Under the pieces are notes generated by a model. That model did no database searches. It saw only the letters and a program-made list of their open reading frames with translations, and had not been told where the DNA came from. From positions 124,001-188,000 of the forward strand of contig JAGWMG010000004.1 in the NCBI GenBank assembly GCA_028871795.1: DNA of 64,000 nucleotides. Direction: 5' to 3'. This document shows, piece after piece, positions 3,171 to 8,200 of this stretch. The translations under genes and the position numbers were made by a program. Each line of letters starts with the position of its first letter. Within the stretch, counting starts at the first letter, position 1. This stretch comes from Alphaproteobacteria bacterium. GTDB taxonomy: Bacteria > Pseudomonadota > Alphaproteobacteria > Micropepsales > Micropepsaceae.

Positions 3171-5345
3171 TCAATGCATCGGCCGCCACGTCATGCCGAG
3201 TTGATCGAACAGGAAGCCGAGTTCGTCGGTCTGTTCGGCGATACGCTCCGACAGGGAGCTGCCGATGCCGTGGCCCGACGTCATGTTGGTGCGAAGCAGG
3301 ACCGGATAGCCCGACGAACTCGCCGCCTGCAGCGCCGCCGTGAACTTGCGCGAGTGCCACGGCTTGACGCGGTCGTCGGTGGCGCCGGTCAGCATCAGGA
3401 CCGCGGGATAGGGCGTCTTCGCCGTGACGTGGTGATAAGGCGAATAGGCGTAGAGCGCCTTGAACTGGTCCGCGTTCTTCACCGTGCCGAATTCGGTCAC
3501 GTTGAAGGCGCCGTTCGTGTCGTTCTCCACGCGGATCATGTCGTAGATGCCGACGGCCGACACCACCGCGCGGGCTAGCGCCGGATGCTGCGTAATCTCC
3601 GCGCCCATCAGCAGGCCGCCGTTCGAACCGCCCATCAGTGCCAGCTTGGCGTGTGAAGTGTAGCGCTTGTCCACCAGATATTCCGCCGCCGCGGCGAAAT
3701 CGTCGAACACGTTTTGCTTGCGCGTCAGCATGCCCTCCTGGTGCCAGCGCTCGCCGTATTCCGATCCGCCGCGGATGTTGGCGATCGCGTAGATGCCACC
3801 CGCGTCGAGCCAGAGCCGCCGGAACGAGCCGAGAAATCCCGGCGTCTGGCTGATGCCGTAGCCGCCGTAGCCGTAGAGCAGCACGGGATTGGCGCCGTCG
3901 AGCTTGGTGCCCTTCTTCATAACGATATTGACGGGAACCCTGGTGCCGTCCTTCGAGGTGGCGAAGACGCGCGTGACCTCCGCGTCGGCGAAGGAGATCG
4001 GCGAGACGACTTTGAGGCCGCTCTCGCTGGTCTTGCCGGTCTTCGGATTCCACATCGCGTAATAGCGCGGGCGCAGATAGGTCGACACGTCGAACAACAC
4101 TTTGCCGTCCGCCAGGGTTACGATCTCGTTGTTGGACGCGACGTCGGGCAGCGGCAGCGTGCCCATGGGCTTGCCGTTCAGATCGAATACGCGCACCTGA
4201 TTGGGACCGCCGACGATGTCGCGCACGAACAATGCGCCTTTGCTGAACGCGAGGTCGGAAACCTGTTGTTCCGCGCCGCCGGAAAGGATGGCGACGCTGC
4301 TTTCGGGCACGATGACTTTTGCGCTCGCCAAGCCGTCTGGCGTTGGCGCATCCAGTTTCACGATCTTCCCGTTGGAGCTGTTCTTGCGCGAGATGGCGTA
4401 GATCGCGCCGTTGGGACCGAGGCCGGCGAACACGATTTCGTCGCCGTAGTTTCCCACGCGCACCGGGGCCGCGCCTTGCCTCAGCACATAGAAAGCCCAG
4501 ATGTTGCCGTCGCCGCGCTGGACCATCGCCATGACCGTGGGCAGGTTGAACCGATTGTCGAGAAAGACCTCGGAGACTTTCTCCAGCCCGTCGTTCTTTC
4601 CGAGCGCCAGCGGATCGGACTTCCAGTCGCTGCCAAGCTTGTGGAAGTAGACCTGCATGTAGAATTTTCGGTCGGCATCCGGCACCGCCGGGCCGGGATA
4701 GCGCGTATAGTAGAAGCCAGTGCCGCCGGCCGCCCAGGCCAGGCTTCCGCCCGCTGTGGCGTATTGCACTTCCGGGATCGCAGCGCCGATCTCCTTGCCG
4801 CTCGCTACGTCGTAAACATGAAGCGTCCCGGCCTCGCTGCCGTTCTTCGACAAGGAAACGGCGATTTTGGTGCCGTCGCCCGAGGCGACGAACCAGTCGA
4901 TAGCCGTGTGGCCGCCCGCATCGAGCGCGTTGGGATCGAGCAATATTTTGCGGCTCTTTGGATCGGCGGCGGCATTCAACGTTACGATCATCGGCTGCTG
5001 CTTCGCGGGATCGCTGTAATAGGCAAATACCCGCGCGCCCTTGGCGGAAAGCGCGTAATAGGCGGGCGACGTCGCGGTCACCAACTTCAACAACTCTGCC
5101 TTGATCGGCGTTTGGCTCTTGAGCCTGTCCAGGTAACCCCGCGCATATTTGTTCTGGGTGTCGCTCCAGGCCTTCACTTTGGGATCGTCCCAGTTCTCCA
5201 GCCAGCGATACGGATCGGCGATCTTGACGCCCTGGACGGTATCGACGGTCGAATCCGTTGGCGTAGCCGGCGGCGGCATGATCGCTGCGCCGGCCGCAAC
5301 AATGCCGATCGCGCAGACAAGCGCAAAGCGCAGGACATATTTCAT
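3171..5345 (-). CDS. Exported prolyl oligopeptidase (peptidase family S9A)
   Basis: Protein of 724 residues beginning with a signal peptide (MKYVLRFALVCAIGIVAAGAA), so it acts in the periplasm or outside the cell. Residues up to about 440 form the beta-propeller part and the rest is the alpha/beta hydrolase. The catalytic triad can be read: Ser574 in GGSNGG, Asp657/658 in ATDDRVKPWHS and His692 in SGHGIG. Family members cut short proline-containing peptides after proline. The 724-residue length is normal for the family with a leader. It is convergent with the DUF4010 gene, one base apart, and is followed upstream by a gene-poor gap. Confidence 0.93.
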   Translation of the reverse strand: MKYVLRFALVCAIGIVAAGAAIMPPPATPTDSTVDTVQGVKIADPYRWLENWDDPKVKAWSDTQNKYARGYLDRLKSQTPIKAELLKLVTATSPAYYALSAKGARVFAYYSDPAKQQPMIVTLNAAADPKSRKILLDPNALDAGGHTAIDWFVASGDGTKIAVSLSKNGSEAGTLHVYDVASGKEIGAAIPEVQYATAGGSLAWAAGGTGFYYTRYPGPAVPDADRKFYMQVYFHKLGSDWKSDPLALGKNDGLEKVSEVFLDNRFNLPTVMAMVQRGDGNIWAFYVLRQGAAPVRVGNYGDEIVFAGLGPNGAIYAISRKNSSNGKIVKLDAPTPDGLASAKVIVPESSVAILSGGAEQQVSDLAFSKGALFVRDIVGGPNQVRVFDLNGKPMGTLPLPDVASNNEIVTLADGKVLFDVSTYLRPRYYAMWNPKTGKTSESGLKVVSPISFADAEVTRVFATSKDGTRVPVNIVMKKGTKLDGANPVLLYGYGGYGISQTPGFLGSFRRLWLDAGGIYAIANIRGGSEYGERWHQEGMLTRKQNVFDDFAAAAEYLVDKRYTSHAKLALMGGSNGGLLMGAEITQHPALARAVVSAVGIYDMIRVENDTNGAFNVTEFGTVKNADQFKALYAYSPYHHVTAKTPYPAVLMLTGATDDRVKPWHSRKFTAALQAASSSGYPVLLRTNMTSGHGIGSSLSERIAEQTDELGFLFDQLGMTWRPMH

Positions 5346-6016
5346 AAGCGAGACTCCCCAGGCGAAGTTTTCCCGCGCATCTTGTCAGGCTAAGGCGCCG
5401 GCGGCGAGTGGCTTTCGCGATCGCGCGGAACGCTGCGTCAACGCTCCCGGCGAAATATTCCGCGGGGAGCTTGTTCGACCAATTTTCGTCCCCATATCTT
5501 TTCTATGGCTTTGGCGATTCGCTCGAAGGCAGCGGTGCGGGTGGATACCCGAGATGTCGAAAACAATTCGATGTGGCCGCCGCTACGCGAACCCCAAGAC
5601 GTGGTGGCGGGTGGGCGGATACCTTCTTCAATCCCGATCGACCGTGCTAATATGAGGCGCTCGGTGCGCCGCGCGTCGCGGACGTCGATGAAGGCCCGTT
5701 GTATGCCGCGTGCTTTCGAGATTCGGAAGGCCGGACGGATCGCAGGCAGCGAATGGGAACCCGTGCCATTCCATTACAGTTCATCTGTTCCGCATTCGCC
5801 GCTGCTTCTTGTCTTCGGCCTCCCTCCCAGGGCTCGCCGATTGTTGCGGCGTGACACGGGATTGCGGGCGCGATTGATCCGCCGTTCATCTTTTTCGGAT
5901 TTGATGTCCGCCGACCCGTTGAGGTCGACGCATGTCAAAGTCTTTCGCGTTGGGGCCGACACATCCTAATATGGAACCCCGCCGGGGGCGTCATCCACTC
6001 AGGCAGGAGTATGAGC
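5346..6016. other. Gene-poor intergenic stretch (671 bp)
   Basis: No convincing protein or stable RNA gene was found. A sequence resembling a heat-shock (RpoH) promoter, CTTGTT at 5470-5475, 14 bases, then CCCCATAT at 5490-5497, points to the right. An open frame of 154 codons starts at 5505, but its composition (many Arg/Ser, no domain) looks like chance. A TAATAT at 5967-5972 could be the -10 element for the following gene, with no good -35 box. The stretch may hold the promoter of the prolyl oligopeptidase at its left end. Confidence 0.5.
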
Positions 6017-6913
6017 ATGTCTGCCAGACAAGAAATCACATGGATTGCGGTTTTGGACGGCGCGCAGGCGCGTTTCTTCGCGCTGCGCAAAAACGGAGAC
6101 GGAATGGTTTTCGAAGCGGCGGCGGAGGCGCTAAGCGCGGACTTGCCGCGTTATTCGCGCGACGAACGCAGCGACAGACCGGCGCGCGCGTTCGCCGTGG
6201 GCAAGGCGCGCGGCGCCGTGGAGCCGCGCCACGATTACAATAAACTCGCGAAGCACAATTTCACGCGCGAAGTCGCAATTGCGCTCGAAGTCGCGTTCGC
6301 CGAGGGCCGCTACGACCAGCTTGTGCTCGTAGCGCCGCCGCGCAGCCTTGGCGAACTGCGTGAGCTGCTGTCGGAACGGCTGTTGGCGAGCCTGGCACAC
6401 GAGGTGCCAAAAAACCTGACGAATCTTGGTACCGACGCTCTGAGGAAAAAATTGTCCGCCCTTCTGGTGAAGGCGGCCACCCCGCTTGGCGGTCCGGTTC
6501 CGCGCGCCGAACAGAAGCCGAAGGCCGACGTCTCATTGCCGGTATCGGTCGTCTTCCGGAACATGGAAGCTTCGCCGGCCGTTCATGCGACCGCCCTCAA
6601 ATACGTGGCCAAGCTCGACCGCAAGTTCGGGCGTATCGTCAAATGCCGGGTGACGGTCGAAGCGCCGCACCGCCATCACCGCAAGGGCCGACTGTTCCGC
6701 GCCAACGTCGATCTGGTCCTGCCGGGTCGCGAGATCACGACCAAACGCAGCGGCGAGAGCAATCACGCGCACGAAGACGTCAACGTGGCGTTACGCGACG
6801 CGTTCGACGCGGCGACGCGCCAGTTGCAGGATTATTTCAAACGGAAGCAGGGCAGCGCTCCGCAGACGCGCCGCGGCCCGGCGTTCGTCATGCGCGGGGC
6901 GGAAGAGGCATAG
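6017..6913 (+). CDS. Host_attach domain fused to ribosome hibernation factor (HPF/S30AE-like) domain
   Basis: Protein of 298 residues with two recognisable parts. Residues about 7-147 match the Host_attach family (ITWIAVLDGAQARFFAL, RSDRPARAF, LVLVAPPRSLGELRELL), whose fold is related to archaeo-eukaryotic peptide release factors. Residues about 175-277 resemble the hibernation promoting factor domain (VSVVFRNMEASPAV, RKFGRIVKCRVTVE, EDVNVALRDAFDAATRQLQDYF), which binds the 30S decoding region. A charged linker joins them. A role on stalled or resting ribosomes is inferred. An ATG at 6011 is too close to the GGAG at 6006-6009; the ATG at 6017 has 7-base spacing and is preferred. The protein is cytoplasmic, with no signal peptide. 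Confidence 0.8.
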   Translation: MSARQEITWIAVLDGAQARFFALRKNGDGMVFEAAAEALSADLPRYSRDERSDRPARAFAVGKARGAVEPRHDYNKLAKHNFTREVAIALEVAFAEGRYDQLVLVAPPRSLGELRELLSERLLASLAHEVPKNLTNLGTDALRKKLSALLVKAATPLGGPVPRAEQKPKADVSLPVSVVFRNMEASPAVHATALKYVAKLDRKFGRIVKCRVTVEAPHRHHRKGRLFRANVDLVLPGREITTKRSGESNHAHEDVNVALRDAFDAATRQLQDYFKRKQGSAPQTRRGPAFVMRGAEEA

Positions 6914-6922
6914 CGCCGGCCG

Positions 6923-8200
6923 TCAGGCCAGGAACCGGTACGACAGGACGTCTTCCCAGGTGAGGCGGTACATGCCGTGCGGTTCGTCGCAGGCCGGTGC
7001 GATCGCCGGACCGCTCAGTTGCTGGATGTTGGCGTTGTAGGCCGGCTTCAGGGTGTCGATGTTCTTGACGTCGGCGACGAAGGTTCCCAGCTTCATCATC
7101 TTGGCGACATTTGCCAGATGGGCGAGGTCTTCGTGTCGGAAATCCTGGCGGTTGGCGAACTCGCGCTTGGCGATGCCGATGGCGCGAAGCCCGATGTCTC
7201 CGTAGGCAATAAAGTCCCGCGAACCTGGCGCCACCGTCGCCGACACACCGCGTGCGAACGGCCGCAGCGTATTGGCCAGATCGTTGAGCCTCGTTTGCGC
7301 GACGCCGTGCGGCACGCCCGTCAAGGTGAACTCGATGTATTGGCGGTACTCGAACGACAAATCATGGCAAATCGAGAGCAACTCCATGCGTCCCACCGGC
7401 GAGCCGAGAACGTCGAACGAGACCATGACGCCGAGCAGAAACCGGTCGCCTCTCCGCACCTGCCTCGCGAGCTGCGCCGCCCCGACCCGTAGACACGAAA
7501 GTTCGACTTGGGCGCGCTCCTTCGCCGTCAATTGCCCCGGTGTCAGATACCTTTGAGAAGCTTGCGCGGTTGTGATCGACTTCGGTTCGCACACGTATGT
7601 CGTGATGACGCCGCTGGGCACGGACCACACGGGAACGTAGTGGTGCTCCACAATCAGCGAGGACGCCGTGGGTTCGGGAAGCGCAGCGCCGCCGCTGGAT
7701 ACGACCGAACGGTTCGCCGGAGCGGAAAGCTCGTCGTCCAGGCCGATCTTCCGAAGATGCTGCGGCAGGCTGAAGTCCTGGATACCGGCTTTTTCGGCCA
7801 AGACGGCGAGGCGCTCGATGGGCAACGGATGCAACGCGAGGGTGTTTTCGCCGCCATCCGATGCCGTGCTTACGTGAATGTTTCCGATGTCGCATTGCCC
7901 GAGAAAGCTCGTGTACAAATCGTGGGCGACCCTGAGGCACACAACGTTGACGTCTTCCGGATCCGTCGAAGGCATGGTCACGAGGTACGCGTTTTCGTTT
8001 ATCCTGGCGAAGAAATCGGTCGGCCCAAGTTTCTGCCGGAGCAACATTTCCATGCGCGCGTAGACGCCGTCGCGAATGCGCGCCCAGCGCGAGCCTGCCT
8101 GCTGTCTGAGGGCGTCGAGGGTGATGACGTTGACGCAGCCGCGCTCCAAGAGCGCAGGCGATGCCGCGCCCCTGAACTCGACCGGAGTCTGCTGCAACAC
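6923..8200 (-). CDS. Degenerate GGDEF/EAL-like protein
   Basis: Protein of 425 residues with no membrane segment. Residues about 25-130 follow the GGDEF-domain pattern (GPTDFFARINENAYLVTMPS) but the GGDEF signature itself is absent, replaced by RINENAY. The C-terminal part resembles an EAL fold: LAHLANVAKMMKLGTFVADV followed by SGPAIAP recalls the LGL..VAEGVE..GYLFSKP end of EAL domains. The EAL catalytic motif is not seen. It probably neither makes nor cleaves cyclic di-GMP and may bind a nucleotide or partner. The start is GTG at 8200 behind AAGGGAAA. It is convergent with the Host_attach-HPF gene. Assignment is from pattern only. Confidence 0.55.
   Translation of the reverse strand: MLQQTPVEFRGAASPALLERGCVNVITLDALRQQAGSRWARIRDGVYARMEMLLRQKLGPTDFFARINENAYLVTMPSTDPEDVNVVCLRVAHDLYTSFLGQCDIGNIHVSTASDGGENTLALHPLPIERLAVLAEKAGIQDFSLPQHLRKIGLDDELSAPANRSVVSSGGAALPEPTASSLIVEHHYVPVWSVPSGVITTYVCEPKSITTAQASQRYLTPGQLTAKERAQVELSCLRVGAAQLARQVRRGDRFLLGVMVSFDVLGSPVGRMELLSICHDLSFEYRQYIEFTLTGVPHGVAQTRLNDLANTLRPFARGVSATVAPGSRDFIAYGDIGLRAIGIAKREFANRQDFRHEDLAHLANVAKMMKLGTFVADVKNIDTLKPAYNANIQQLSGPAIAPACDEPHGMYRLTWEDVLSYRFLA

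Follow-up and report, generated by a model that had tools for sequence, protein, structure and literature searches.

RaiA and HPFcold occupy the mRNA channel and the tRNA sites of the 30S subunit (PMC13392368, PMC11317432). Balon, reported in 2024 on the same ribosome as RaiA, adjoins the peptidyl-transferase centre with its middle domain and can sit beside RaiA, in contrast to aeRF1 and Pelota, which are excluded by a collision of their N domains with RaiA (PMC10901736). Furthermore, the Balon gene is often located adjacent to a RaiA/HPF gene (PMC10901736). Conserved baeRF/HPF gene neighbourhoods and the proposal of an A-site plug date from 2019: for baeRF families with a poorly kept loop, no Gln, and a kept Arg, Burroughs and Aravind proposed insertion into the A site (PMC6514570). 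HPF-type proteins also occur joined to further modules, e.g., the archaeal HibA, in which an HPF/RaiA domain is combined with a CBS module and which is argued to hold the subunits together (PMC13324472). For HPFcold and HPF-SigE fusions, PMC13392368 cites a 2025 preprint of Chan et al.

The gene described here encodes a Host_attach/baeRF family 12 domain followed by a Ribosomal_S30AE domain, which is a new domain combination among ribosome hibernation factors, a known kind of system. Like Balon, the fusion has the fold of the middle domain (up to Z 14.2 in VIA) and lacks GGQ. Balon, however, comprises in addition a decoding-centre domain at its N-terminus and an EF-Tu domain at its C-terminus and works next to a separate RaiA, whereas the fusion contains the middle domain only, covalently joined to an HPF domain. 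Further hallmarks of Balon are the bL27 trap and the A2602 lasso of its middle domain at the peptidyl-transferase centre. HPFcold (S30AE plus cold-shock domain; PDB 9T0Z) is the best PDB sequence match to the S30AE half (E 2.9e-15); in the fusion, the cold-shock domain is absent and a Host_attach domain is situated at the N-terminus instead. As in core-only families of the baeRF-1 clade (e.g., family 12), an RNase H-like core occurs alone and without a conserved Gln, and several baeRF families have HPF as neighbour, as reported in PMC6514570. A covalent fusion to S30AE, which distinguishes our protein from these families, is unmentioned in the passages of PMC6514570 examined. HibA follows the same logic of an HPF domain plus a module for the other subunit, but its partner domain is unrelated, and the protein is archaeal. 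In the HibA study, bacterial HPF proteins were screened for additional domains, and its section on evolution is without a Host_attach fusion (PMC13324472). In case of long HPF, the S30AE domain is the common element; its C-terminal dimerisation domain was not found in the fusion, and nothing therefore points to HPF-driven 100S dimers. In the literature searched, we found no account of S30AE being fused to a Host_attach or baeRF domain. On the Host_attach family itself, our searches retrieved next to nothing, with PF10116 occurring in a single paper. The protein is a natural Rosetta-stone fusion, since it unites the counterparts of two proteins found together on hibernating Psychrobacter ribosomes.

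Gene, domains and predicted folds

The window, i.e., the whole analysed stretch of 64,000 nt, is located on contig C8 of a soil bacterium (assembly of 2.98 Mb, 22 contigs, 95.6% complete). The ORF of the fusion protein spans 6011-6913 (+) and comprises 300 aa counted from the first ATG. A Shine-Dalgarno-like AGGAG (6005..6009, +) precedes this ATG by only 1 nt, compared to 7 nt for the second ATG at 6017. Furthermore, Met 3 of the 300-aa form, which corresponds to ATG 6017, is invariant in an alignment of five fusions, three of which start at this position. Due to the AGGAG spacing and the invariant Met 3, ATG 6017 is the better start, in agreement with the choice of the sequence-only reading, and the gene is placed at 6017..6913 (+; 298 aa plus stop codon, alternative start 6011). 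The 298-aa protein is basic (pI 10.2), and neither a signal peptide nor a membrane segment was seen on inspection by eye. Two genes fused by a frameshift were considered and rejected, as a single open frame is present in the window (352 codons) and in six other genomes (271-313 codons).

The fusion gene stands alone at its locus. Upstream, a prolyl oligopeptidase gene (3171-5345, -) is situated on the opposite strand, and downstream, a gene encoding 425 aa without Pfam match (6923-8200, -) is convergent with the fusion gene. An EcfG-like promoter common to the fusions was not found in the eight upstream stretches scanned; one loose EcfG-like motif occurs at -261 in the window and one, with a different pattern, in fen_915.

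In the 300-aa numbering, which is used for all Pfam positions, residues 11-148 match PF10116 Host_attach over its entire length (profile positions 1-138 of 138, E 6.2e-30, 105 bits versus a cut-off of 26.7). The same domain (6041..6454, +), which has the aeRF1 middle-domain, RNase H-like fold, matches baeRF_family12 PF18856 (positions 2-138 of 138, E 2.3e-28, 100 bits versus 27.7). Residues 179-279 match PF02482 Ribosomal_S30AE (positions 2-87 of 88, E 1.2e-12, 48.8 bits versus 23.7), and this HPF/RaiA-type domain (6545..6847, +) is also indicated by fold searches and residue conservation: most S30AE positions conserved in 54 non-fused rows are kept in the fusions. Hence the two domains read by eye from the sequence are present, the Host_attach domain complete and the S30AE domain behind the linker near-complete, and both exceed the Pfam cut-offs in all five further fusions scanned. 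In NCBIfam, no model exceeded its cut-off for the fusion protein; since the YfiA equivalog TIGR00741 reached 17.7 bits, under its cut-off of 40.9, the S30AE half is a divergent member. A cold-shock domain was matched neither in the window protein nor in five other fusions; the position that it holds in HPFcold relatives is taken by a short Arg-containing C-terminal tail (6857..6910, +). Similarly, no Pfam match to the dimerisation domain of long HPF was obtained, and just 21 residues follow the S30AE match. The N-terminal and C-terminal domains of aeRF1 are missing from the Pfam list of the window protein.

An AlphaFold2 model was built on five fusions (300-aa numbering). The whole-chain model is moderately confident (mean pLDDT 63.8, pTM 0.39), with a domain orientation that is not reliable; modelled alone, the Host_attach half reaches pLDDT 72.6 and pTM 0.64. 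Residues 155-174 (6473..6532, +), with pLDDT <50, constitute a low-confidence interdomain linker that we take as disordered. For residues 178-281, the order beta-alpha-beta-beta-beta-alpha was predicted, so that the S30AE half, besides passing its profile cut-off, shows the beta-alpha-beta fold expected of it. A Foldseek search of the whole chain against the PDB placed the Balon protein Msmeg1130 (8v9l) at rank 1, E. coli HPF at rank 2, and 8rd8 chain D at rank 3. The latter chain (105 aa) is presumably the RaiA of the Balon+RaiA ribosome. In VIA comparisons, residues 176-284 align to 8rd8_D with Z 16.0 and residues 6-160 to the central portion of Rv2629, a Balon homologue, with Z 13.5. For the Host_attach half alone (residues 1-155), Balon scored Z 14.2, eRF1 13.2, and Pelota 11.4, with the first unrelated chain at 8.1; Balon and eRF1 are tied within the margin of the fold comparison. 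The relation to release factors suggested by the sequence-only reading is therefore borne out in the predicted model. The solved folds nearest to this half are Balon, eRF1, aRF1, and then Pelota, all of which are A-site proteins. According to these models, a single chain corresponds to the two factors of the solved Balon+RaiA ribosome: its N half resembles the Balon/eRF1 middle domain and its C half HPF/RaiA.

Distribution and selection

A contig scan with three fusions as query revealed five loci, four of which are fusions, namely REEB149, fen_915, nzgw541, and the isolate Rhizomicrobium electricum DSM 21034. In the genus of the window, 7 out of 69 genomes contain one match spanning both halves, the six besides the window being these four, G420, and G422. 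How widely such a fusion occurs had been raised by the sequence-only reading. In the class and phylum scans, for which the best six candidates per genome were scored, it was observed in at least 2 of 385 genomes (its own genome and G080) and at least 1 of 398 (its own genome), respectively, and the fusion is thus rare in both samples. Each of the six other fusions in the genus has a neighbour in common with the window locus, which fits vertical descent at one locus: the heme A synthase gene ctaA (named by Pfam) in fen_915, nzgw541, G420, and R. electricum, and the 425-aa gene in REEB149 and G422. The product of the latter gene, for which a faint GGDEF likeness was noticed by eye, is 66% identical in REEB149 and 52% in G422. 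Carriage by phages or plasmids was rejected: no phage record matches, no viral contig was confirmed in three scans, and among 72,556 plasmid records, 13 match, all of them over less than 80% of the query.

Purifying selection, as judged from substitution patterns, acts on both halves. In all five pairs compared (out of 21 possible, with dS near saturation in the wider pairs), dN is smaller than dS in both halves, e.g., 0.080/0.465 for the Host_attach half and 0.025/0.517 for the S30AE half of nzgw541 versus R. electricum. In the four wider pairs, dN of the linker and tail is near dS or approximately half of dS; in the closest pair, nzgw541 and R. electricum, linker and tail are conserved as well.

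Except for G420, which encodes a second S30AE protein besides the fusion, a single S30AE domain (PF02482) was found in each of the fusion genomes (6 out of 7), including that of the window; in the same scan, 57 of the 69 genus genomes contain at least one. All seven fusion genomes are at least 92% complete, so that an overlooked second S30AE protein is possible but unlikely in all six genomes. Due to its being the sole S30AE protein found in these six, the fusion has probably taken the place of the ordinary HPF in its hosts. In R. electricum, which appears to encode no other S30AE protein, the role of the Host_attach domain is directly testable in a single cultured organism.

Loop region and possible action on the ribosome

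The region aligned with the aeRF1 catalytic loop (6125..6259, +) comprises 45 aa without Gln and without GGQ, and its last dozen residues form a helix in the model. Among the fusions, its length ranges from 23 to 48 residues, two relatives having a much shorter loop. GGQ is absent from the equivalent region of all eight fusions, four of which lack any Gln there, and peptidyl-tRNA hydrolysis is therefore unlikely. In the helix following the loop, 7 out of 8 fusions have an Arg (window sequence FTREVA), G422 being the exception; this is the pattern that Burroughs and Aravind describe for the baeRF families proposed to insert into the A site (PMC6514570). Directly behind strand 1 of the model, an Asp (D14 in the 298-aa numbering) is invariant in the seven fusions aligned and may speak against a purely passive role. 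Of 20 non-fusion Host_attach rows, two contain the letters GGQ in the loop. These are standalone Host_attach genes of the same genus (L009 and L074 in G034 and G432), with the letters in the equivalent of the release-factor loop; at the corresponding region, L013 and L076 read GGT and HGQ, respectively.

With a modest lean, we consider it probable that the fusion is a single-chain ribosome hibernation factor that plugs the 30S decoding/mRNA channel and the 50S A site. In the manner of HPF, RaiA, and HPFcold, the S30AE half would bind across the A and P sites in the decoding/mRNA channel. The Host_attach/baeRF12 half, which is related to the aeRF1/Balon middle domain and putatively without catalytic activity, would enter the 50S A site near the peptidyl-transferase centre, as in Balon. 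Together, the halves would fill the two active centres and hold the subunits together as an inactive 70S ribosome, with the S30AE domain taking over the 30S anchoring that is accomplished in Balon by the N-terminal domain. Since the fusion lacks the aeRF1 N domain and brings its own RaiA-like domain, one chain could fill both centres, and due to the absence of the EF-Tu-binding C-terminal domain, EF-Tu should not be needed for loading. In favour of this reading are also the lack of a second S30AE protein in six of the seven fusion genomes, the selection on both halves, the absence of GGQ, and the proximity of unfused Host_attach and S30AE genes. From the domains and folds we infer ribosome binding, placement in the A site, and a role in starvation. 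To this extent the sequence-only reading holds in its idea that a single protein acts on idle ribosomes, in its alternative of a blocked A site, and in its view that the name "host attachment" misleads; its suggestion of chemistry on a stalled peptidyl-tRNA does not agree with the GGQ-free, length-variable loop. The main doubt concerns the linker, which would have to bridge the 30S site and the 50S A site and, with about 20 residues, let both halves sit as their relatives do; it measures approximately 20-22 residues in the model and up to 4 fewer in relatives. Due to the much shorter loop of two relatives, the contact to the peptidyl-transferase centre may be weak or absent. The rarity of the fusion, the second S30AE protein of G420, the moderate confidence of the model, an invariant Asp that a nuclease or NTPase could use, and a Host_attach half that is as close to eRF1 as to Balon speak against the plug as well.

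The short linker and the length-variable loop would also suit a protein whose S30AE half sits on the 30S subunit, while the Host_attach domain docks elsewhere or binds tRNA, EF-Tu, or an rRNA helix, adding affinity or protection outside the A site. Such arrangements have precedents: HibA ties its HPF domain to a large-subunit-binding module and occurs in several conformations (PMC13324472), and the extra domain of HPFcold covers the anti-SD and not the A site (PMC13392368). We regard this explanation as unlikely, albeit worth serious consideration, given that the nearest solved folds all belong to A-site proteins. The RNase H-like fold could alternatively indicate a nuclease, an NTPase, or a role in tRNA or rRNA maturation, the S30AE half serving only to target the ribosome. 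Further down the Foldseek list, Ppx/GppA, RuvC, and actin-like ATPases do occur, and the invariant D14 is near the usual place of the catalytic acid in nucleases and NTPases with this fold. However, these matches are far weaker than the aeRF1-type ones, and aeRF1-type domains are said to lack the strand-1 catalytic residue (PMC6514570), which may or may not be the place of D14; we presume this explanation to be improbable.

An active rescue or release factor that docks on stalled ribosomes and hydrolyses peptidyl-tRNA appears slightly less probable still. The aeRF1-like fold and the GGQ letters of the two standalone relatives would fit, but none of the fusions has GGQ, half of them have no Gln in the loop region, and an S30AE domain in the decoding/mRNA channel is a poor fit with a translating ribosome. 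Nothing but the Pfam name speaks for a protein of the cell surface or of host attachment, or for an artefact of annotation or assembly; with the S30AE fusion at a shared locus in 7 of 69 genus genomes, an isolate included, no secretion or membrane signals by eye, and dN below dS in both halves, we assign hardly any probability to it.

Origin and unfused relatives

In a tree of the S30AE domain (62 rows), the genus fusions form one clade (98*), and their sister is the unfused S30AE protein of the congener G029 (97*). In this genome (L006/L105), the stop codon of a Host_attach gene lies 23 nt before a gene encoding an HPFcold-type S30AE plus cold-shock-domain protein, and this pair likely represents the pre-fusion state. 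The Host_attach tree (28 rows) also recovers the genus fusions as one clade (99*); eight congeners including G029 adjoin it, with a support of 84 only, and G029 is not singled out. As simplest history, a neighbouring Host_attach-HPFcold pair fused and the cold-shock domain was lost. The fusion of G080 may be a second, independent event: one clade for all eight fusions is marginally disfavoured by the Host_attach tree (AU p 0.0475), whereas the S30AE tree does not reject it (p 0.595). Both trees were computed quickly, from few columns, and leave many forks open. In G122, the Host_attach and S30AE genes are situated in the same frame with a single TAA between them.

Genes of unfused Host_attach and S30AE proteins were compared in 61 genomes which, among the matches listed in the genus, class, and phylum scans, contain both domains as separate genes, fusions being left out. 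Among these matches, the two genes are located at most 5 kb apart in 8 genomes and not in the other 53, compared to 0.21 genomes expected by uniform placement (Poisson 8e-11, kinship ignored; rows picked by eye). Judged by group code, the eight genomes represent 6 families. A cold-shock domain is present in the S30AE partner of G029, G404, and G255; with G661, which is under the cut-off (21.3 versus 27 bits), the neighbour is of HPFcold type in 4 out of 8 genomes, G102 and G123 being outside the cold-shock scan. The sister of the fusions' S30AE domain, that of G029, is among these four. The S30AE partner of G437 has no cold-shock domain, and the frame of G122 is too short for one.

Host_attach PF10116 was found in many Proteobacteria of the class and phylum samples, and the fusion suggests that this widespread "host attachment" family really works on ribosomes; the family is probably misnamed. 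In a wider reading, to which we give slightly less than an even chance, the fusion would be a minimal Balon, reduced to the middle domain and welded to HPF, that plugs both centres independently of EF-Tu and tethers the subunits, and the Host_attach family would consist of hibernation factors working with HPF proteins, often HPFcold. If true, this would be another case of hibernation factors evolving by the addition of a module to HPF, be it a dimerisation, cold-shock, CBS, or aeRF1-type domain.

In case of G437 (L106 2701-6723), genes for a CBS protein, S30AE, Host_attach, Usp (universal stress protein), and a nitroreductase occur in a row, which may place stress-type genes around the unfused pair. 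The stop codon of S30AE and the start codon of Host_attach overlap as ATGA, and this S30AE is divergent (21.9 bits, just below the Pfam cut-off of 23.7). At L107 5816-9349 (G122), a multi-rhodanese protein, Host_attach, S30AE, and a metallo-beta-lactamase-fold protein are encoded in one run. L066 of the Rickettsiales bacterium AM-377-L16 contains a Host_attach-like gene, the matched frame of which is without S30AE. In G661 and G255 (L125 and L129), members of two different families, P-type cation ATPase genes are situated beside or between the Host_attach and the S30AE cold-shock genes.
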